From Planctomycetaceae bacterium (GTDB lineage Bacteria > Planctomycetota > Planctomycetia > Planctomycetales > Planctomycetaceae): a stretch of DNA of 64,000 nucleotides. The stretch spans positions 8,096 through 72,095 of the forward strand of contig PBSL01000013.1 in NCBI GenBank assembly GCA_002726205.1, given 5' to 3'. A program made the translations under genes and the position numbers. A model generated the notes under the pieces. The model had not been told where the DNA came from, searched no databases, and saw only the letters and a program-made list of their open reading frames with translations. This document shows, piece after piece, positions 27,198 to 39,442 of the stretch. Numbering within the stretch: position 1 is the stretch's first letter; every line of letters starts with the position of its first letter.

Positions 27198-28529
27198 ATG
27201 ATTCGTCGAATTCACGTCCTGGCCATGGCCGCCGTCACGTTATTCACCGTTGCTGCAAGATCTTCAGGCGAGGAACTCAATTTCCGCCCACTCGTCCAGG
27301 TGGAACTACAGCGAAAGCAAACACGTTGGCGAGAACTGGCCCGCTTTCAAGCGGTTCGCATGCCGCTGCCGAAAGGGGACAGCGTCGCGCTGACCGACAA
27401 ACATCTCGACAATTCCGGCCAAATTCGTCCCGCTGTGTTCCGGCGATTGTCCGAACACAAGCAACTGGTGGGACTCAGTTTCCGCAACACCTCGTTTTCG
27501 GATTCCGGCCTGGCGCAAATCGTCAGCCTGGTTCGGATCGAGTTGCTTGATCTCTATGGGACCCGCATTACCGACAAGGGGCTTTCCGCGCTCCCGCGAT
27601 TCGGTCGACTGCGAGAACTGGACCTCGGCGTGACACGGATCACTTCCTCAAAGCTCGCTCCACTGAAACGACTTCGTCACCTCGATGTCCTGGAACTCTC
27701 GGGCCGCAGGATTTCTGATGACGCGATCGCGACACTGAAGGAACTGAAACATTTGCGTCAATTGAATCTCTCGGGAACCCGGATCGGGGACACCGGCGTG
27801 GCCCAACTGAGATCGTTGGTCGGACTCGAGGCGCTCGGTCTGGCGGGGACGCCAGTCGAGGGGACCGCATTGGCGTCTCTGGCGACCCTCCCCCGCCTGG
27901 GACTGCTCGACCTGGCAGACACCGACGTCAAAGGGAATTCGATCGAACAACTCACTGCTTGCCGTCGACTGACGGCCTTGAACCTGGAGAACTGCCCGCT
28001 CGTCGTCGATGACTCCACGCGGCACCTGCCGGGCTTGAAGTTCCTCAAAGGCCTCGTACTCCGCAAGACCGGATTCGAGTCCGAATCGATCACCGGCAAG
28101 GGGTTGGTGGCCATCGGCACGATACGAGGCCTCGAGCACCTCAACCTCTCGGCGACCCGAATCAATGATGAGTCGCTCCCGTCACTGGTAAAACTCGACC
28201 AACTCCGATTCCTGCACCTTGGGCTGACCGGCGTTTCCAATGCCGGACTGGCACAACTGGCCAAGTTGCCGCGACTGGAATCGCTAAACCTCACGTACCA
28301 GGAAGGCTTTGGTGGGACCAAGGTCGATGCGGGCGGTCTGGGCCAACTCGCGACCTACCCTGCGTTGAGACGACTTGATCTGACGGGTATCAAGATCGGC
28401 GACAAGGATGTGAGTCGATTCCGTGTGTTGAAGCAGTTAACGAGACTGACGGTCTCGGGGACGATGATCGGATCGGAGGGCCTGAGGCAGCTCCGCCAGA
28501 CCTTGCCCGGCTGCGAAGTTGTGCGCTAG
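27198..28529 (+). CDS. Secreted leucine-rich-repeat protein
   Basis: 443 residues with a signal peptide (V-L-A-M-A-A-V-T-L-F-T-V-A-A-R-S-S-G). From about residue 75 to the end it consists of 24-residue leucine-rich repeats of the RNI/cysteine-containing style, for example 'L-R-E-L-D-L-G-V-T-R-I-T', 'L-R-Q-L-N-L-S-G-T-R-I-G-D-T-G-V' and 'L-E-H-L-N-L-S-A-T-R-I-N-D-E-S-L', giving about 14 turns. The 'T-x-I-x-D-x-G-L' pattern is widespread in planctomycete LRR proteins of unknown role. The final stop shares bases with the stop of the convergent Ldh-family gene (4-bp overlap, C-T-A-G). Probably a secreted interaction scaffold. Confidence 0.85.
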   Translation: MIRRIHVLAMAAVTLFTVAARSSGEELNFRPLVQVELQRKQTRWRELARFQAVRMPLPKGDSVALTDKHLDNSGQIRPAVFRRLSEHKQLVGLSFRNTSFSDSGLAQIVSLVRIELLDLYGTRITDKGLSALPRFGRLRELDLGVTRITSSKLAPLKRLRHLDVLELSGRRISDDAIATLKELKHLRQLNLSGTRIGDTGVAQLRSLVGLEALGLAGTPVEGTALASLATLPRLGLLDLADTDVKGNSIEQLTACRRLTALNLENCPLVVDDSTRHLPGLKFLKGLVLRKTGFESESITGKGLVAIGTIRGLEHLNLSATRINDESLPSLVKLDQLRFLHLGLTGVSNAGLAQLAKLPRLESLNLTYQEGFGGTKVDAGGLGQLATYPALRRLDLTGIKIGDKDVSRFRVLKQLTRLTVSGTMIGSEGLRQLRQTLPGCEVVR

Positions 28530-29617
28530 TCCAACGCAACGCCGGTCATCGCGACAATCTCCCGCAAGTCATCGATAACGGCTGCCACGAGCGGGATCCC
28601 CTTGCCGGCCCGAATCGCCTCGGCCTCCCGTTCCGGATCGCCGGGAATGATCGGCCCCTCGGTCCCCGGCGCCGGCCTGGTCGCGCGGAACGTACGGATC
28701 CAGTCGTCGATCTGACGTTTGAACTCGTCGGGATCGATGAAGGCGTCGATCCTCATGGCCCCGAAGAAATGGCCAAGCCCCACGCCAACCTCTCGGGGTG
28801 GTTCCTCGAAGTCGGTGGTGAAGATCGGGGTGAAAGGCCCCCAGTTGGCGCCGCTGAGCACTCCCGAGAGGATATCGATCATCGCTCCCAGGCAGTATCC
28901 CTTGTGACCTCCACGTTCCCGTGTGGATCCCAGGGGAAGCATCGCTCCCCCGTCAACCATCGCGGCGGGATCGCATGTTGGCTGACCCTCGCGGTCAATG
29001 GCCCAGCCCTCGGGAATCGCCTCGCCCTTGCGAAGGGCCATTTCGAGTTTGCCAAAGGCCGCAGCCGGGGAGGCCATGTCGATGACGATCGGTGGCTCTT
29101 CGTGACCCGGGAAGGCGATCGCGATGGGGTTGGTCCCCAGCATCCGGTCGGCCCCCCACAGCGGAGCGACGATTTTGGTTGTATTGGTCATGGCCCAGCC
29201 GATCTGGTCACGTGCCAGCGCTTCGAGGACGTAGTACCCGGCGATGCCATAGTGATTGCTGCCACGGACGGTCACCCACCCGGTCCCGACCGTGTCGGCC
29301 TTGTCCATCGCAATCCGATTGGCAACCGGTCCTACGACCAGTCCCAACCCGTTGTCCCCATCGATGCTGGCCGTTCCCGGCGTCTCACGAATCGTGCGGA
29401 TCATGGGCCGGGGATTGATTCGGCCAGAATCCAGCATCGTGGCATAGGCGTGAAGGCGTGCGATTCCGTGCGAGTCGATGCCGCGCAAATCTGCTCGGGC
29501 CAGGATGTCGGCCGCTAGCGCGGACTGGTCATCGGGCACCCCGTAATGCAAAAACACGCGATGACTGAACTCGCGCAGCCGTTCGATCGGGAAGACCGTC
29601 AGTTTCGAGCCAGGCAT
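28526..29617 (-). CDS. Ldh family (malate/L-lactate/ureidoglycolate type) NAD(P)-dependent oxidoreductase
   Basis: 363 residues, full length. Family marks are 'A-D-L-R-G-I-D-S-H-G-I-A-R-L' near residue 43-56, 'G-S-N-H-Y-G-I-A-G-Y-Y' near 119-129 with the catalytic His, 'I-V-I-D-M-A-S' and 'G-H-K-G-Y-C-L-G-A-M-I-D' near 240. Enzymes of this fold reduce 2-oxo acids (oxaloacetate, pyruvate, 2-oxoglutarate, ureidoglycolate type substrates) with NAD(P)H. It starts 9 bp after the L-2-hydroxyglutarate oxidase gene, so the pair may handle the same 2-hydroxy/2-oxo acid couple. Exact substrate cannot be read from sequence. Confidence 0.88.
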   Translation of the reverse strand: MPGSKLTVFPIERLREFSHRVFLHYGVPDDQSALAADILARADLRGIDSHGIARLHAYATMLDSGRINPRPMIRTIRETPGTASIDGDNGLGLVVGPVANRIAMDKADTVGTGWVTVRGSNHYGIAGYYVLEALARDQIGWAMTNTTKIVAPLWGADRMLGTNPIAIAFPGHEEPPIVIDMASPAAAFGKLEMALRKGEAIPEGWAIDREGQPTCDPAAMVDGGAMLPLGSTRERGGHKGYCLGAMIDILSGVLSGANWGPFTPIFTTDFEEPPREVGVGLGHFFGAMRIDAFIDPDEFKRQIDDWIRTFRATRPAPGTEGPIIPGDPEREAEAIRAGKGIPLVAAVIDDLREIVAMTGVALD

Positions 29618-29626
29618 GCGTCCTCC

Positions 29627-30826
29627 CTATGCGAAACGGTGGGCCAGTTTCTCGACCACGTGATTCCCAATATTCAATGACGCTGTGGCCGCCGGCGATG
29701 GGGCGTTGCCGACATTGACGATCCGATCGGTTTCCTGGATCAAGAAATCATCCACGAGCGATCCGTCCCGTGCCAGGGCCTGCGCTCGGACGCCGGCCGG
29801 TGCCACTTCAAGATGTTCAGCCTTGATCTCCGGGACCAACCGCGAAAGCGCCTTGACGAAGGCCCGCTTGCTGATCGAACGCCACAGCTCACCCATCCCC
29901 ATCTTCCAGTGCCGGGCCGCCATCCGCAGGAATCCCGGATAGGTCAGCGATTCGCACAGGTCCCGCAGATTCACATCCCGCAGACGGTACCCTTCCCTGG
30001 CAAAAGCCAACACGGCGTTGGGACCACACTCGACACCTCCGTGGATCATCCGCGTGAAATGCACGCCCAGGAAAGGGAACTCCGGATCGGGGGTCGGATA
30101 GATCAGGTTGCGGCAGAGGTGGTGCGCTTCGGGCTTCAGATCGAAATACTCACCTCGAAACGGCACGATTTTGGCCTCGGGGCGGACGCCGGTCATGCGT
30201 GTCACGCGATCACAGTGAAGCCCCGCGCAATTGACCATCATCGTGGCCGCGACGTCGCCCTGGGAGGAATGCACGACGATCTCCTGCGTGGAGTGCGTTA
30301 TGCCGGTAACACGAGCGCCGAGAAGAATCTCCGATCCGCCGGCCGTGATCAGTTCGCCCATCCGGTTGCAGACCTGTCGATAATCAACGATCCCGGCCTC
30401 GGGAACATGAATCGCCTGCACACCAGCGACGTGCGGTTCCAGTTCGGCAAGTCGCTCCTTGCCGATCATCTCGCAGGCGACCCCGTTGGCTTGACCTCGT
30501 TGAAAAATCCGATCCAGGGCCGGCAGTTCACGGTTCTCGATGGCGACGATCACCTTGCCGCAGCGTTCAAACGGAATGTCCTGCTCGCCACAAAACGATT
30601 CCATCGCCAGTTTCCCCACGCGGCAGTTCCTGGCCTTGAGTGATCCGGGCTTGTAATAGATGCCCGAATGCATCACGCCGGAATTGCGACCTGTCTGGTG
30701 TGCTGCCAGCTCATCTTCTTTCTCGAGCACCACGACCGAGCGGCCCGGAAATCGTTCGATGAAGCGTAACGCGGTCGCAAGCCCAACGATGCCGCCGCCG
30801 ACAATGACAAGGTCGATGTGTCGCAC
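29627..30826 (-). CDS. lhgO: L-2-hydroxyglutarate oxidase (LhgO)
   Basis: 399 residues, matching the E. coli LhgO length. FAD-binding '[13 protein letters not shown]' at 7-19, then the family signature '[16 protein letters not shown]' at about 43-58 and 'K-P-G-S-L-K-A'. Further marks are '[10 protein letters not shown]' near 222 and '[10 protein letters not shown]' near 248. The enzyme oxidises L-2-hydroxyglutarate to 2-oxoglutarate and passes electrons to the membrane quinone pool. It follows the ApbE gene by 26 bp at the end of the nqr operon, fitting a shared quinone-linked respiratory unit. In E. coli the gene sits in the glutarate operon, so this neighbourhood is different. Confidence 0.92.
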
Positions 30827-30852: not shown

Positions 30853-32166
30853 CTAGTTTTCGACAGGCACCGAACAGTTCGTCGCTGAATCGGAATCGGG
30901 CACAAAGCCCTCAGCAGATGGATTCGAGCACGCACGGCACTGCGAATCGTTCCGGGCATCGCAAAACACCGACAGTCCGCCGCAACTTCCAATCAGGCCA
31001 CGCCCTTTCAGCAAGACGCCAGTGGACAGTCCCCCCACGGCCAAAACCACCAGTGCCAGAACCGGCCAAAGCGTTGCCGTCCATCCGCTGGCCCGGCCTG
31101 TCGGAAAGGCGTTCAGGAACTCTGGCGTTGCCGTTTCGTGGACCTCCCCGCCCAGGCGACTCAGCAACAACGCGGCGATCCCGTGACGCTTGGCATGGTC
31201 CAGGCCTTCTTCCGGCCCCAGAACCATCAACATCGTCGCCAGCCCATCAGCAGTCATGCAGTCTGAGGCGACCACGGTGACTGCGGCCAGGTTGTGCTGT
31301 ACCGGTTGGCCAGTTCGAGGATCAAGAGTGTGGGAGACGTATCGCCCCTGGTGAACCTTCCTGTTGCGGTAGTCCCCGGATGTCGCGACGGCACGTGATC
31401 CTTCCGAAAACGAGAGTACGCGACGCACGCGGCGAACTCCCGCGATCGGCTCCTCCACGCCTATTCGCCAGGGCCTTCCACCTGGTCTCTTGCCACCCAC
31501 GCGTGTTTCACCACCAATCTCAACGAGGTAACCGTCGACCGGGAGCGATTCGAAGAACTCTGCCACCACGTCCACCGCGTATCCCTTGGCAATCGCCGAG
31601 AGGTTGATCGTCAATCCAGGGATCGTCTTGCGGATTGCAGGCGGATCCTGTCTGGTGACGAGTTTCTTCCAGCCAACCAGGCTCTGGGCGACCGCCAGGC
31701 GTTCCGTGCCCGGTGCGGCCTTGGCCGCCGCCACCCCAAAACCCCACAACTCAACAAGCGGTGACACGGTGATGTCGAAGGCGCCCTTGCTTTGACGGCT
31801 GATCTCTCCTGCCGCATCGATCACCCGGACCGTTTCGCTCGACACCGAAAACCAGTCGGTGCTCTCGGAACTGTTGAAGCGGCTGATTTCCGAATCGTCT
31901 CTCCAGTTCGACATTCTCGATTCGATTCTCTCAATCCGTCGAGAAATCTCCGCGCGCAGTCGCTCCGGTGCCAGGATCGGACTGCTGTGTTCGCCGGCAT
32001 GCCATCTTGCTGTCCAGGCGGTCCCCATGGCCTGGCCGCCGAGTGTGCTGGCCTCGGCAGCCACGGCTGTCCGGGATGAAATGGCCAACGCTGGAATCAG
32101 CACCAGGATGATGGCGGGCCACCAGGGCGGCATCAGCGCTTTCCTCGAGGGTACGCTTCGGATCAT
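30853..32166 (-). CDS. apbE: ApbE FAD:protein FMN transferase with C-terminal NqrM-like domain
   Basis: 437 residues, about 80 longer than usual ApbE. A signal peptide or anchor lies at 12-37. ApbE marks follow: 'A-M-G-T-A-W' at 46-51, '[13 protein letters not shown]' near 85-97, 'A-I-A-K-G-Y-A-V-D', 'V-A-T-S-G-D-Y', 'H-T-L-D-P-R-T-G' and '[12 protein letters not shown]', with the Asp that binds Mg2+. The tail has a hydrophobic helix (about 367-385) followed by 'G-S-C-G-G-L' (C395) and further cysteines at about 402, 410 and 413. This helix plus G-S-C-G-G plus C-x2-C layout is that of NqrM, the small iron-delivery protein needed for Na+-NQR assembly. ApbE attaches FMN covalently to Thr in NqrB and NqrC. 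It sits directly after nqrF (37 bp). Confidence 0.87.
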
Positions 32167-32203: not shown

Positions 32204-33424
32204 CTAACCAAAGTCGTCGAAGAGGATGTTGTCAGATTCGACGCCCAGGTCATCCAGCATCTTGAGCACGGCTTGCAACATCATCGGAGGGCCGCAGATA
32301 TAGTACTCGCAGTCTTCCGGGGCTGCGTGGCCGTCGAGATAGCTGTCCAGGAGAACCTGGTGAATGAAACCGGTTTTCCCCTCCCAGTTGTCTTCCGGTT
32401 GTGGTTCTGACAGCGCAACGTGGAAACTGAAATTCTCATTTTCATCGGCCAGTTGCTGGAATTCCTCTTCGTAGAACATCTCACGGGAACTGCGTGCACC
32501 GTACCAGTACGAGACCCGGCGAGCCGTTCTGCGTTCCTTGAAAAGTTCAAAGATATGGCTCCGCAGTGGTGCCATTCCCGCACCACCTCCGATGTAGACC
32601 ATTTCCGTCTGGCTCTCGCGGATGAAGAACTCTCCAAAAGGGCCGGCAATCGTCACATCGTCACCGGGCTTCAGGTTGAAGATATACGACGAGACTTTCC
32701 CGGGTGGAATCCCCGCCGGGCCCCGTGGCGGAGGAGATGCAACACGGACATTCAGCATGATGATGCCGCGTTCGGCGGGGTAATTGGCCATCGAATACGC
32801 GCGGACGACAGGTTCTTCGACGACCGACTTGTAGTCCCATAGTTTGAAGGTGTCCCAGTCGCCCCGGTAGATCTCATCGATGTCGAACGTGCGGTACTCC
32901 AATTCGTGAGGTGGCACTTCGATCTGGATGAATCCACCCGGTTTGAAATCGACGGTTTCTCCCTCGGGTAATTCCAGCACAAGTTCCTTGATGAACGTGG
33001 CGACATTGTTGTTGGACCGCACGCGGCAGTTCCACTTTCTTGTGTCGAAGACTTCCGGTGGCACCGCGATCTCGAGGTCCTGCTTGACCGAGACCTGGCA
33101 ACTCAATCTCAGGCCCTCGCGTGCTTCCCGGTTATTGATGTGATTCTTCTCGGTCGCAAGAATTTCTCCACCGCCGGAAAGCACGTGCACCGTGCACTGG
33201 GCGCAGGTGCCACCGCCCCCGCAGGCGGACGAAACAAACACCTTGTTGTCGGCCAGGGCACCCAGCAATTTGCCTCCCACGGGAACCGTGATCGTCTTTT
33301 GTTCGTTGATCACGATCGCCACATCACCGCTGGCGACCAGTCGCGACTTGGCGGCAAGGATCACGGCCACCAACGCCATCACCACGCCGGTAAACATCAC
33401 GACACCAAGCAGGATCGACGTCAC
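32204..33424 (-). CDS. nqrF: Na+-translocating NADH:quinone reductase subunit F
   Basis: 406 residues, standard length. An N-terminal membrane helix (about 3-25) is followed by a 2Fe-2S ferredoxin domain with '[13 protein letters not shown]' (C's near 69, 75 and 78) and 'L-S-C-Q-V' near 110. The FAD domain has 'R-A-Y-S-M-A-N-Y' near 210 (the R-x-Y-S FAD motif). The NADH domain has '[12 protein letters not shown]' near 275, and the protein ends 'D-D-F-G'. It is the electron entry subunit: NADH to FAD to 2Fe-2S. The start overlaps the nqrE stop by 4 bp. Confidence 0.96.
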
Positions 33425-34038
33425 AGCTGGATCCCTCCAAACGCCATAAACGCCAACGCCATCAGCCCGACGGTGATGAAGGTGATGCCGAGTCCTCGCA
33501 GGCCGGCGGGGACATCACTGTACTTGAGCTTCTCGCGGATTCCGGCCAGGGCCATGATCGCCATCGCCCATCCAATCCCCGACCCGAGCCCATAGACCAC
33601 GCTTTCACCGAACGTGTATTCGCGTTCCACCATGAACAGCGTGCCACCCAGAATGGCACAGTTGACCGTGATCAGCGGCAGGAAAATTCCCAGCGCGTGG
33701 TAGAGCCTGGGGAAGTAACGGTCGAGGGCCATCTCCAGGACCTGGACCATCGCCGCGATCACGCCGATGTAGCTGATCAGGCCGACAAACGTCAGGTCCA
33801 CATCGGGAGGGACGCCGACCCATTCCAGGGCACCGGGCTTGAGCAGTCGGTTGTAGATCAGGTTATTGGCCGGCACGGTAATCGCCTGGATCACGATCAC
33901 GGCGATCCCCAGCCCGGTGGCCGTGCGAACGTTCTTGGAAACGGCAAGAAACGTGCACATCCCCAGGAAGAACGACAGGGCCAGGTTCTCGATGAACACC
34001 GACTTCACGAACAGGCTGAGATATTCTTCGATTCCCAC
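33421..34038 (-). CDS. nqrE: Na+-translocating NADH:quinone reductase subunit E
   Basis: 205 residues with six membrane helices. The N-terminus '[20 protein letters not shown]' and '[11 protein letters not shown]' are typical of NqrE/RnfA, and '[10 protein letters not shown]' carries the second conserved cysteine. In the enzyme structure NqrD and NqrE hold a 2Fe-2S cluster between them through such Cys residues. The gene starts 6 bp after nqrD and overlaps nqrF by 4 bp. Confidence 0.96.
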
Positions 34039-34044
34039 CGAAAA

Positions 34045-34671
34045 TCAGCTCCCTTCCACCTGGTCGGTCTTCCACGTTCTCAGTGCCCAGATCAACATGC
34101 CGATCAGGAAAAACGCGCTGGGCGAAAGCATCATCAACCCGTTAGGAACAAACCACCCGCCCTCGCTTGCCGGCTTGAACACCGTGAGTCCGTAGAGTCT
34201 GCCGGACCCTAAGATCTCCCGGAAGCAGGCCAGAATCAGCAGCAGTCCGCTGTAGCCCAGTCCGTTGCCCAGCCCGTCAAAGAAACTCAACTTGACGGAA
34301 TTCTGCATCGCAAAACCCTCGGCACGCCCCATCACGATGCAGTTCGTGATGATCAGACCAACAAATACCGACAGTTGCTGGCTAACCGAAAACGCGTAGG
34401 CCTGGATGAATTGATCCACGACGATCACCAGTGATGCGATGATCGTCATCTGAACAATAATGCGAATACTGCTGGGAATGTGACTGCGGATCAGGGCCAC
34501 CGAGACGTTCGAGCAGGCCAGAACAAACGTGACGGCCGCACACATGACCAGTGTTGGCTTGACCTGTGTTGTCACGGCCAGCGCGCTGCAGATTCCCAGG
34601 ACCTGTAGCGCAATCGGATTGTTGTTCACCAGTGGATCAAGCAGCACATCCCGGTTCCGGGTCTCAGCCAT
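34045..34671 (-). CDS. nqrD: Na+-translocating NADH:quinone reductase subunit D
   Basis: 208 residues from the ATG at 34671 ([14 protein letters not shown]), which overlaps the nqrC stop by 8 bp; the frame extends 20 codons upstream within nqrC. Six membrane helices. '[17 protein letters not shown]' and '[14 protein letters not shown]' are hallmark NqrD/RnfE segments with the two conserved cysteines for the membrane 2Fe-2S cluster shared with NqrE. Confidence 0.96.
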
Positions 34672-35551
34672 CGGCTTCTCCTTTTGCCGCTGGCGACGGT
34701 TGCCTGTCCGGGTTCGCGTGTTCCGAAGCACGTCTCTTCAGGTAGGGCCCGTACCCGTTACTTCCCAGCCAGAAGTCGAGCATCCGAGAGACGCCATTCG
34801 AGGTGATTGTCGCCCCCGAAAGTGCATCGACGTCGTGCAGACTAGCGTCCTCTGCCGATTTCGTAACGCTCAACAACACTTGCCATTCGTCGTCGAAAAT
34901 CCGTTTTCCGATCCAGAGTGTTTTCCAGGCCGGATTGTCGACTTCACCGCCCAAGCCCGGCGTCTCACCATGCTGGTAAAAGGTCAGGCCGCGGACGGTG
35001 GCCTGCGTCGGTCCCCTGTCGAGTGAGTCCGAGTCAATGGCCAGAAAACCGTAGAGTGTTGACCACAGCCCGTAGCCACGGATCGGCAGGATGATGGTTT
35101 CGACCTTTTCCGGTTGGCCCTTGGCTGTCACAAGGTAAACCCAGCCAACGTCCTCGCGCCGTTTGATCCCCGCCACGTCCAGTTCCCGAAGCTCGCTCAG
35201 ATCGAGATCCGACGACGTGCCGGGCCGTCGCGAGGCCTTGAGCTGGTCGTACTCGTCAGGCTTCTCCGCGACGTCGCCGGTTTTCAGTCGTATCGCCTGC
35301 CGGATGACGAAGGAGTCGAAGAAAGACGAAAGGTCATCGACACCCCGCGACTGGAAAAAGGCGTCGAAATCCGTACCGTCGCCAAGCTCGGTCGGAAAGG
35401 CCGCCTTGAGGATGTTGCGGCGTACCGCGTCAGCCCGATTTCGGTCCTGCCGTTCGCGCAAACCCACGGCGGTTGCAGACACCAGGAACGAGCAGGCCAG
35501 GCACAACAGCAACGCTACCAGAAATGTTCGAAGCGTCGAATCACGTGACAT
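34664..35551 (-). CDS. nqrC: Na+-translocating NADH:quinone reductase subunit C
   Basis: 295 residues from the ATG at 35551 ([10 protein letters not shown]), overlapping the nqrB stop by 11 bp; an upstream in-frame Met at 35599 is less likely. One membrane helix (about 8-28) anchors a periplasmic FMN-binding domain. The flavinylation motif is '[10 protein letters not shown]' near residue 250, whose Thr in S-G-A-T receives FMN from ApbE. '[12 protein letters not shown]' near 180 is the typical G-x-x-x-x-x-x-G-x-L segment. A C-terminal tail of about 20 hydrophilic residues follows. Confidence 0.95.
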
Positions 35552-36776
35552 CGTGAGGCCTCCGTCGCAGACGTCGCCGGACATTGGCCTGCACGACAAA
35601 ATGGTCGATCAACGGGGCAAACACGTTCCCGAAGAGGATCGCCAACATGATCCCCTCGGGGTAGGCCGGATTCACTACCCGGACCAGGATCGTCACCAGA
35701 CCAATCAGTGCTCCGTAAAACCACTGGCCGGTGCGAGTCATCGAGGCAGAAACCGGGTCGGTGGCCATGAAGATCGTGCCGAAGGCAAATCCTCCCAGGA
35801 CCAGGTGCCAGTGAACCGGCAGGGCAAACAGGGCGTTGGTCTCGCTACCAATCGCGTTCAGGGCCAGCGTCCACAGCGATGCCGAGGCCGTCAGCGAGAC
35901 CATGATCCGCCAGGAACCGATCCCCGTGCCAACCAGGATGAATGCTCCGATCAGGCAGGCCAGCGTCGAAGTCTCGCCCATCGAACCGGCCGTGACACCC
36001 AGGAAATTGTCCCACCAGGAACTGGAGATCGCCTGCAGGCCCTCAGAGGCGTCAACGGTCGCCAGTGTGCCCAGGGGCGTCGCGGCGGTGTGGCCGTCGA
36101 CGGCCGTCCAGACACGATCACCGACCATCGAGGTGGCATTATTGAAATACAGGAAAGCCCTGGCCGTCAGGGCCGGGTTGAGGAAATTCCGCCCCGATCC
36201 CCCAAACACCTCCTTGCCAATAACGATCCCAAAACTGGTCCCCAGGGCGACTTGCCACAGAGGAATCGTCGGTGGCAGTGTCAACGGCAACAGGAGGCCG
36301 GTCACAAGCATTCCTTCGTTGAGTTCATGCTTGCGGATGCAGCAGAAAAGGACTTCCCAGGCACCGCCGACCACATTGCAGACAATGTAGACCGGAAGAA
36401 AGTACAGGCCTCCGTGGATCACGTTGGCAACCAGGCTCTCGGGATTGAACTCAAGCCCCAATTGCAGCAGCAGCGCTCCCCGCCAACCTTCAGCCGCCGC
36501 ATCGGCAAGCCCCTTGTCGACAGCCAGGACCAGATTTGCCTGGTAGCCGGTATTCCAGAGAGCCATGACCAGGCACGGGATCGCCGCCACGACGACGGTG
36601 ATCATCAATCGTTTGGTGTCGAGTGCGTCCCGAAGATGTGTGTCCCCCTCAGCCACCGTCCCGGCCGAATAGAAGAAACTTTCACCACCCTCATACAGCG
36701 GGTACAGACGCTCAAATCGACCGCCGCTGTCAAAGTGCGGATGAATTCGATCAAAAATGCGCCGCAGCAGTCCCAT
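35541..36776 (-). CDS. nqrB: Na+-translocating NADH:quinone reductase subunit B
   Basis: 411 residues, standard length, with about ten membrane helices. The N-terminal amphipathic 'L-Y-P-L-Y-E-G' region precedes '[13 protein letters not shown]'. The covalent FMN site is '[11 protein letters not shown]' near residue 235; it reads T-A-A-T where S/T-G-A-T is commoner, but the Thr accepting FMN is kept. '[16 protein letters not shown]' and 'M-A-T-D-P-V-S-A-S' are further NqrB/RnfD marks. It carries FMN and riboflavin and most of the Na+ path. It starts 9 bp after nqrA. Confidence 0.96.
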
Positions 36777-36785
36777 GACGAAGAA

Positions 36786-38171
36786 TCAACCCTCTCGTTG
36801 AATCTGTTCGAGGTTTTCGCGAAGCAGGTTGCCGTAGTCGTATTTGCCCGGGCAGACGTAGGTGCAAAGGGCCAGGTCTTCCTCGCCCAATTCCAAGCAG
36901 CCAAGTTCCTTGGCCCGTTCCGTATCGCCGACGATCAGTGCTCGCAGCAGGTGCGTGGCCAACAAGTCAAGAGGCATCACTCGTTCATAGCTGCCAATAG
37001 GAATCATCGCACGCGAGCTGCCTTCCAACGCCGTGGTGAACTTGTACCGATCAACCCGGGGGGAACGTCCCAGCCACTGTTCCAGTGTGTGCAATGCCGA
37101 TCCGAGGAAAGCTCGCGTCACCGAGAACTTATCGCCCCCGGGGCGTTGCCATCCCAGAAGCACTCGTTCCCTGCCCTCGTGTAACAAGGACACCTGCTGG
37201 TGCCGTCGCCCCAGGTAGCCCAGGGCGCCGGTCGCATGACGTCCCGAAAGCACGGAACCGGAAATCACACGATGTTCCCTGTCGTCGGCCTCGCCTACCA
37301 GGAGCTCTTCCAGCGAAGCCCCCCAGCGGGTTTTCACCAAACGCGGTCTCAGCGCTGCCGGACCAGCCAAGGAAACGACACGATCGCTGGTCAATCCACC
37401 GGTCACGAACAATCGGCCAATCGCAACCACATCCTGATAACCGATATGCCAGGCCACCCGCGATTCATCGACTGGTTCGAGAAAATGCATGTGTGTGCCG
37501 GGAAGGCCGGCAGGATGCGGTCCCGAAAACACTTGATGCGTGAACCCCGGAAGATCCGTCCCTGGAATCGAGCCTGTCGGACCCGTGACAAGATGCCGAG
37601 GCCCGTCAACAAGCTGAACCAGGACACGAAGTCCCTGCACGAAGGCCTCTTCGCATGAAGCGAGCACGACCGACGGATCCGCCGCGAGTGGATTGGTATC
37701 GATGGCGGTCACAAACAGCGATGCCGGGACGCTGTCGATGGCTGGAACGACGCCGAAGGGCCGCTGTCGGAAGGCCGGCCACAACCCCGAATCCACCAGC
37801 GTCTCGCGAATCTGCTGAGATCCAAGAGACTCAAGTTCCGATTCCGGGACTGACGGGAACTCTACAGCACGGTCGTCGTTCGCATCAAAACACTCGATCA
37901 CCAACGATTGAAAGACGCGTTTTTCGCCCCGGTTGATCGCGATCACGGTGCCGGATGCAGGGGCAGTCAGAACAACGCCGGGGTTCCTGCGATCGGTGAA
38001 CAGGCGGCCTCCACGCCGGACCACATCACCAACGGCGACTTCCATGGACGGTTTCAGGCCGACATAATCATCACCGACAACGGCGAGTCGACTCGTAACC
38101 GGACCGGTCGTGATCTCCTGCACGGGGGCACCCGGGACCGGCAGGTCGAGCCCCTGCTTGATCGGTATCAT
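36786..38171 (-). CDS. nqrA: Na+-translocating NADH:quinone reductase subunit A
   Basis: 461 residues, standard length, soluble. It opens 'I-K-Q-G-L-D-L-P-V-P-G-A-P' as in all NqrA proteins. Family marks include 'V-G-D-V-V-R-R-G-G-R-L-F-T-D-R', 'P-G-V-V-L-T-A-P-A-S-G-T-V', 'L-R-P-R-L-V-K-T-R-W-G-A', and a C-terminal 'L-C-T-Y-V-C-P-G-K-Y-D-Y-G' motif. NqrA is the cytoplasmic subunit on NqrB implicated in ubiquinone binding. It is the first gene of an operon that continues through nqrF, apbE, lhgO and ldh, all on the minus strand with gaps under 40 bp. Confidence 0.96.
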   Translation of the reverse strand: MIPIKQGLDLPVPGAPVQEITTGPVTSRLAVVGDDYVGLKPSMEVAVGDVVRRGGRLFTDRRNPGVVLTAPASGTVIAINRGEKRVFQSLVIECFDANDDRAVEFPSVPESELESLGSQQIRETLVDSGLWPAFRQRPFGVVPAIDSVPASLFVTAIDTNPLAADPSVVLASCEEAFVQGLRVLVQLVDGPRHLVTGPTGSIPGTDLPGFTHQVFSGPHPAGLPGTHMHFLEPVDESRVAWHIGYQDVVAIGRLFVTGGLTSDRVVSLAGPAALRPRLVKTRWGASLEELLVGEADDREHRVISGSVLSGRHATGALGYLGRRHQQVSLLHEGRERVLLGWQRPGGDKFSVTRAFLGSALHTLEQWLGRSPRVDRYKFTTALEGSSRAMIPIGSYERVMPLDLLATHLLRALIVGDTERAKELGCLELGEEDLALCTYVCPGKYDYGNLLRENLEQIQREG

Positions 38172-38467
38172 CCCGCCAACAGTCCCTTATCAGCCGGATG
38201 ACACATTTCGGCCATTCCCGGCGAATGCCACGTCAAAACCCCATAAATCAGGCGGCATCTTACACCTCTTCCGCATAAATGACAGGCCAGCGACTGGGCA
38301 TTCGCCGCTTTATGGGAGGAAAAACAGAGCCGGAGTTCAAGCGAATACATCTTGAAACGCTTCTGGGGACCCGCGATAATCGACAGCTTGTGATGCAGTT
38401 ATTCCTGTCAGATTTCTTCGCGGTCTCGGTATCGTCCCGCGACAGTCGCCGTTCTGGAGTCCAGAAG
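38172..38467. promoter_or_regulatory. Divergent intergenic region between nqrA and the prepilin gene
   Basis: 296 bp with no credible gene; it must hold the promoters of the minus-strand nqr operon and the plus-strand prepilin gene. It contains two direct copies of C-A-T-A-A-A-T (38242-38248 and 38274-38280), 32 bp apart, and a third related inverted copy (C-T-T-T-A-T-G-G) near 38309-38316. No clear sigma-70 boxes or riboswitch could be identified by eye. A ribosome-binding-like G-G-A-G lies just ahead of the ATG at 38468. Confidence 0.4.
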
Positions 38468-39442
38468 ATGAAATATTCTCAGCGGGCGCGCGCTCAAACG
38501 AGACGGGCGTTCACTCTTATCGAATTACTCGTCGTGATCGCGATTATCGCGATCCTGATCGCATTGCTGCTACCCGCCGTTCAGCAGGCTCGCGAAGCTG
38601 CCAGACGAACAAGTTGCAAGAATCGACTGAAACAGATCAGCCTTGCCGCGCAGAATTTTCATGACCAGATGAACACGCTTCCACCGGGCTACCTGGGTCC
38701 GATGCCGGTTGGATCCCGCAACACGAATTCCAACATCAGCACTTTCCAACAGATCGGCGTCCTCGTCTTCCTGCTGCCGCACATGGAACAGGTCGAACTA
38801 CAACGGCAGGTCAAGGTACTCAAGGTGCTCGACCGGATCGGTCCCGCCTGGTGGCGAGACTCGATCAGTTGGAACACCGCTCATTACAAGATCGGCAATT
38901 TCATATGCCCCTCGGCACGCCCCTATGGCAACGAAAGGGGAACTGCTGCCACCACAAACACCTTCGGCCCGACATCCGGCGGTTCCGGAACACTCGAATT
39001 GTGGTATTTCCCCAATCCGGGTGGCCAGAACCTCGGCCGAACCAACTATGTGGGGGTCTCGGGTGTCCTCGGACATGTACCCGTCGGAAACGGCTGGTAC
39101 AAATTTCACGGCCCGCTTGGCAATCGCACCAAGATCAAGATCAGTGAAATTTCCGATGGTTCCAGTTACACGTTCCTGTTTGGTGAACACACCGGTGGAA
39201 TTCACGTCATCAGCGACCGCGATCATCACCTGTATGCCCACTCCTGGATGGGGTCCGGCTGCATGCCGACCGCCTGGGGCCTTGAAGGCAAGGAATGGTA
39301 CCGCTTCAGCAGCGAGCACGTCGACATTGTGCAGTTTGCCATGGCAGACGGATCGGTCCAGACCGTCAACGTCAACATGGACCTCGGCAAGTATCGCAAC
39401 CACGCTGGTATGGAAGAACGCAACGCGACCGAAGGCCTGTAA
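38468..39442 (+). CDS. DUF1559 prepilin-like (type II pseudopilin) protein
   Basis: 324 residues from the ATG at 38468, which puts the prepilin signal at the N-terminus: '[20 protein letters not shown]' with cleavage before the Phe and Glu at position +5, followed by '[14 protein letters not shown]' and 'C-K-N-R-L-K-Q-I'. Residues about 75-310 are the DUF1559 domain ('[10 protein letters not shown]', a late '[10 protein letters not shown]' and the terminal 'F-A-M-A-D-G-S-V'). The N-terminal motif should be processed by a PilD-type peptidase. These proteins exist in dozens of copies per planctomycete genome and are probably extracellular. The small lipoprotein gene follows by 62 bp. Confidence 0.95.

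Follow-up and report, generated by a model that had tools for sequence, protein, structure and literature searches.

The locus described here raises the question of whether the two proteins that mature Na+-NQR can be carried by one polypeptide, and at which face of the membrane each of its parts would then work. Passages of two papers give ApbE the task of attaching FMN to NqrB and NqrC, and indicate that the intramembrane [2Fe-2S] centre of NqrD/NqrE apparently depends on NqrM (PMC12174285, PMC6209661); the passages of the former describe both as NQR maturation proteins. In the window, the whole stretch of 64,000 nucleotides of planctomycete DNA that was analysed, the gene following nqrF had been predicted to fuse an ApbE flavin transferase to an NqrM-like module.

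The fused gene and the nqr operon

Every element named in the original prediction, namely a complete ApbE domain, a membrane helix, GSCGGL, a later cysteine and C-x2-C, is found in a single ORF that starts with ATG. Its features, with their basis in brackets, are as follows.

30853..32166, minus strand: apbE-nqrM fusion gene, 437 aa (ORF in which ApbE and NqrM are matched in the same frame)
32056..32166, minus strand: predicted Sec signal peptide, residues 1-37 (...TAVAA/EA), without lipobox (sequence reading; lipobox heuristic negative)
31168..32028, minus strand: ApbE FMN-transferase domain, residues 47-333 (PF02424, E 5.6e-85; PDB 6NXI, E 1.4e-66)
31072..31167, minus strand: linker, residues 334-365 (codon scan and sequence)
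31009..31071, minus strand: predicted NqrM transmembrane helix, residues ~366-386 (hydropathy and charge; the NqrM profile match starts at residue 367)
30928..30990, minus strand: NqrM cysteine motif GSCGG...C...CxxC, residues 393-413, with C395, C402, C410 and C413 (sequence and the tails of relatives)

The ApbE domain covers positions 1-265 of the 266 in the PF02424 profile and retains the conserved flavin-transferase motifs, and the match to 6NXI extends over residues 37-350. The signal-peptide-like N-terminus, ending in AVAA/EA, was read from the sequence. Residues 366-386 form a single hydrophobic stretch followed by K387/R389 and then by G393-S-C-G-G-L398, after which further cysteines lie at 402, 410, 413 and 431. 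AlphaFold models of four sequences gave a reasonable ApbE domain and a tail of low confidence, mostly with pLDDT <40.

The fusion ORF closes a complete nqrABCDEF set, in which nqrF is its nearest upstream gene at a distance of 37 bases. Chains B-E of PDB 7XK3, from Vibrio cholerae, served as the reference for NqrB to NqrE.

32204..33424, minus strand: nqrF (ORF; homologues recognised beside the fusion in relatives)
33421..34038, minus strand: nqrE, cysteines of MCTFLAVSK and NCAI kept (7XK3_E, E 1.3e-89)
34045..34731, minus strand: nqrD, cysteines of ICSALAVTT and NCIVMGRAE kept (7XK3_D, E 1.9e-81)
34664..35599, minus strand: nqrC, FMN site DALSGAT, with its true start probably within the listed ORF (7XK3_C, E 5.8e-55)
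35541..36776, minus strand: nqrB, FMN site DGHTAAT (7XK3_B, E 3e-124)
36786..38171, minus strand: nqrA (PF05896, E 5.1e-33)

The putative target sites are intact in NqrC (SGAT) and in NqrD/NqrE (cysteines). The FMN-transfer target motif of NqrB/NqrC is D-x-x-[S/T]-G-A-[S/T], and the window NqrB carries an altered form in which Ala replaces the conserved Gly. Its two nearest relatives (loci L305 and L306) have DGH[S/T]AAT and L300 has DGYSAAT; most other loci read have DGx[S/T]GAT. A Gly-to-Ala change in the flavinylation motif of another protein gave about half flavinylation, as stated in a passage of a review (PMC12052999).

Immediately behind the fusion, also on the minus strand, is an ORF (29627-30826) that, by sequence impression, encodes a FAD-dependent oxidoreductase resembling 2-hydroxyglutarate oxidase, and a malate/lactate-dehydrogenase-like ORF (28526-29617) comes next. 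Beside nqrA, on the opposite strand, there is an ORF (38279-39442) with a prepilin-type N-terminal methylation-like sequence; such ORFs are common in planctomycetes.

Homology of the tail to NqrM

The original prediction had proposed a profile search as the check on the tail. Against the Pfam model of NqrM itself (PF04400, cut-off 22 bits), residues 384-414 match only weakly (12.3 bits, E 0.16), too little to decide the assignment either way. A profile of stand-alone NqrMs only, the Marinobacter protein included, does match the tail (48.4 bits, E 2.5e-17) and matches none of 200 shuffled window tails, which upholds the claim of an NqrM-like tail fused to ApbE beside nqrF. All 53 other fused proteins match the same profile with at least 41.2 bits. 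In addition, a profile of 20 tails from the class, with the window row left out, matches the window tail at 51 bits (E 8.7e-18). The PF04400 cut-off is reached by eight of ten representative tails, one of them exactly at the cut-off; stand-alone planctomycete tails score 27.0 and 26.5 bits and one fused tail 31.7 bits. Since the window tail is below this threshold, its membership rests on intermediate sequences, and by such sequence comparison it is homologous to NqrM. No NqrM model of NCBIfam was matched, even by the stand-alone Marinobacter protein, and NCBIfam is therefore uninformative on the tail.

Across the class, the same module is found either at the C-terminal end of ApbE homologues or in a small reading frame of its own immediately behind them. 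The transmembrane helix directly before GSCGG (G393-G397 in the window protein), a feature of NqrM, is present. Existence as a separate small protein, also a feature of NqrM, is absent here, which is a difference in gene organisation and not in the domain.

Fused and split genes in the class

The source genome is a draft of 4.86 Mb that is 96% complete. In a profile search of it, the tail itself was found at E 1.4e-20 and the next match at E 0.07, and PF04400 gave weak matches only, none over the cut-off. Neither the window, as had been claimed, nor the rest of the genome yielded a separate nqrM, although the completeness of the genome leaves a little room for a hidden second copy. A tail with no NqrM match or a separate nqrM elsewhere had been named as evidence against the original prediction; both were looked for and neither was found. 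The genome has a single NqrB/RnfD gene and therefore one NQR/RNF-type complex. A separate ApbE is more distant and lies on another contig, so the fused ApbE is taken as the NQR-linked copy.

Among 397 sampled genomes of the class, the NqrM module occurs in 123, with exactly one copy in each. A real nqrA is present in 126 genomes, and NqrM was found in 122 of these versus 1 of the 271 without nqrA (odds ratio ~8000; Fisher p 1e-96, which is descriptive only, the genomes being related). Conversely, 122 of the 123 NqrM genomes also have nqrA, and in the sole exception (G379) NqrM lies near a contig end. Every locus was re-read, and NqrM was found fused to ApbE in one frame in 54 cases, separate and just downstream of apbE in 61, and elsewhere, on the opposite strand or broken by frame in the remaining 8. 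The fusion is thus carried by about four in ten of the sampled relatives having Na+-NQR. The split nqrM adjacent to apbE overlaps it or starts at most 60 bases off in 58 of the 61. No second NqrM was found in any of the 54 fused genomes, and the survey suggested with the original prediction therefore returned fusions only where a stand-alone nqrM was absent.

Fused genes were seen in three family-level groups, and in two of these both states are well represented; a quick ApbE tree needs up to eight changes between the fused and split states, two of them forced by starred branches. The ApbE-NqrM architecture is recurrent and not a one-off. Met stands at the old NqrM start position in 19 of the 54 fused genes, versus 2 of 54 in an equal-length neighbouring stretch, which fits fusion through loss of the apbE stop codon.

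Not every NQR seems to require NqrM, because two genomes with well-covered nqr loci have an NQR without detectable NqrM. G002 (L298), a single closed contig, has a complete nqrABCDEF with no apbE beside it, and NqrM was not detected anywhere in it; G043 (L299) has nqr and apbE at a well-covered locus and no detectable NqrM. Maturation in these genomes is either NqrM-independent or served by a strongly diverged factor. Stand-alone NqrM without apbE nearby was seen at L257 (G242), L260 (G310), L262 (G112) and L264 (G092). Beyond the class, a phylum-wide sample yielded one long-frame candidate (G420, of another class), which was rejected after the upstream part of its frame proved not to be ApbE.

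With these data, two readings that would do away with the fusion, or with NqrM as a part of it, were rejected. The source assembly consists of 76 contigs, and a stop codon lost by sequencing or assembly error could have joined two genes; since the 53 further fused genes come from independent genomes, several of them single-contig (G065, G073, G349, G142), and the fusion is shared by both nearest relatives, the chance of such an artefact is negligible. Scarcely more credible is the view that helix and cysteines are unrelated to NqrM, forming merely an ApbE anchor with a convergent motif. The PF04400 score below cut-off would allow this, but the stand-alone-NqrM profile finds the tail and no shuffle of it, and relatives have the module as its own gene right behind apbE, several of these tails being over the NqrM cut-off.

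Cysteine pattern of the module

Exactly four cysteines lie within 30 residues from GSCGG in 114 of 115 linked proteins, the exception being a truncated frame. The fourth usually follows CxxC by seven residues. It is absent in one genus-level group of 15 genomes, where a cysteine stands three residues before CxxC instead, and also in the window protein and its nearest relatives (G371 and G395), where a cysteine precedes CxxC by eight residues (C402 in the window); G170 shows yet another arrangement. A constant number of cysteines at shifting positions would be expected of a four-thiolate metal or cluster site, and a putative four-cysteine site in the NqrM tail is in this way supported comparatively, with too few independent pairs for a paired comparison of cysteine loss versus gain. 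Among unlinked NqrMs, three of eight depart from the four-cysteine pattern. Divergent NqrM-like proteins whose motif region holds only three cysteines in its first 30 residues were seen at L271 (G010), L272 (G004) and L268 (G391). A 2016 study by Kostyrko and colleagues reportedly found four conserved cysteines in Vibrio harveyi NqrM, of which only Cys33 was indispensable; the GSCGG cysteine kept in the window tail is presumably its counterpart.

Anchor and membrane orientation

By a heuristic rule, a lipobox is found in 49 of the 61 split ApbEs. Of the 12 that fail the rule, four look like lipoproteins by inspection and the rest start with a hydrophobic helix and no lipobox. Among fused ApbEs with a readable N-terminus, only 4 of 52 have a lipobox and the other 48 mostly have a plain signal peptide, as the window protein does by the same heuristic; this contrast is confounded by ancestry, the independent pairs in the tree being too few for fusion to be tested against lipobox. 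As the lipobox is common in split and rare in fused ApbEs, it is simplest to suppose that the NqrM helix took the place of the lipid anchor, and the comparison supports a probable takeover of anchoring from the ApbE lipid by this helix.

The net charge is higher C-terminal to the helix, itself a heuristic call, in 53 of the 54 fused proteins (mean +2.1 vs -0.3). With a predicted exported ApbE in front of the helix and positive charge behind it, the ApbE domain of the fused protein should be periplasmic and the cysteine tail cytoplasmic. The helix and its charges are also found in split NqrMs, which would therefore have the same orientation.

Proposed function

It is highly probable that the fusion is one bifunctional Na+-NQR maturation protein that combines an exported ApbE, an NqrM helix anchor and a cytoplasmic cysteine module. 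The signal peptide would export the ApbE domain, which would work on the periplasmic side and attach FMN to NqrB and NqrC. Behind this domain the chain would return into the membrane via the NqrM helix, which may also anchor it in place of the usual lipid, and the cytoplasmic cysteine module would help to supply NqrD/NqrE with iron or the [2Fe-2S] centre. From the literature on other species, we infer that both FMN transfer and iron(-sulfur) delivery would be performed by the fusion; likewise, we infer its membrane orientation and a benefit of co-localisation.

Two other readings accept the homology of the tail and give it a smaller role. The tail could be a degenerate remnant that anchors ApbE and no longer works as NqrM: with the profile of the class, it scores 71.5 bits, near the bottom of a fused range that reaches 102, and the usual cysteine after CxxC is gone. 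We regard this as improbable, given that GSCGG and CxxC are kept, that the replacement cysteine at motif position 9 is common to G371 and G395 so that the count stays four, and that the genome has no other NqrM, yet an intact NQR operon and intact NqrD/NqrE cysteines. A marginally better chance, still a small one, is left to the view that a separate NqrM is additionally made from the fused gene, through internal initiation or proteolysis, and that the fusion is only a genomic convenience. The overlap or close spacing of apbE and nqrM in split relatives would agree with it, as would the in-frame ATG that 29 of 53 scored fused genes have within or close to the linker, and the enrichment of Met at the old NqrM start. 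Internal initiation is thus possible in some relatives, but a codon scan found no in-frame ATG, GTG or TTG between the ApbE end and the helix of the window gene, and therefore no separate NqrM can start there.

Returning to the bifunctional protein, a more far-reaching form of this reading, to which we give slightly better than even chances, is a two-sided assembly factor. FMN attachment outside and iron or [2Fe-2S] delivery inside would be timed at the same nascent NQR, the helix would have replaced the lipid, the fusion would fix the orientation of NqrM as N-outside/C-inside, and the four cysteines would form a movable metal site.

Relation to known systems and significance

The window tail resembles NqrM (DUF539, PF04400) of Vibrio-type operons in its single helix, GSCGG, further cysteines, nqr and apbE context and single copy; unlike it, the module is here the C-terminus of ApbE, scores below the Pfam cut-off, and has its fourth cysteine moved into the loop before CxxC. 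Similarly, the front part shares with ApbE (PF02424), the NQR-associated periplasmic lipoprotein, a complete domain and a place directly after nqrF, and differs in having no N-terminal lipobox and a predicted C-terminal helix anchor. Most characterised ApbEs are N-terminal lipoproteins, as stated in passages of a review (PMC12052999). The only fusion mentioned in these passages is the trypanosomatid ApbE-fumarate reductase, which likewise unites ApbE and a partner from the same pathway in one polypeptide; as described there, that protein is intracellular and joined to its substrate, whereas the planctomycete ApbE is predicted to be exported and is joined to a second maturation factor (PMC12052999). 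In the available passages of the open-access literature on NqrM and ApbE, including a 2021 eLife flavinylation survey and the 2025 ApbE review, an ApbE-NqrM fusion is not mentioned. Domain databases may well already list this architecture.

To our knowledge, the assembly of the Na+-NQR iron-sulfur centre is barely understood. The fusion of NqrM to an exported enzyme indicates the side to which its cysteines should be turned, namely the cytoplasmic one, and links NqrM physically to flavin attachment; the shifting position of the fourth cysteine speaks for a four-thiolate metal site. Natural comparisons are offered by planctomycetes in which the two genes are fused or split. If the two-sided reading is true, the fusion would be a natural topology reporter for all NqrM proteins.
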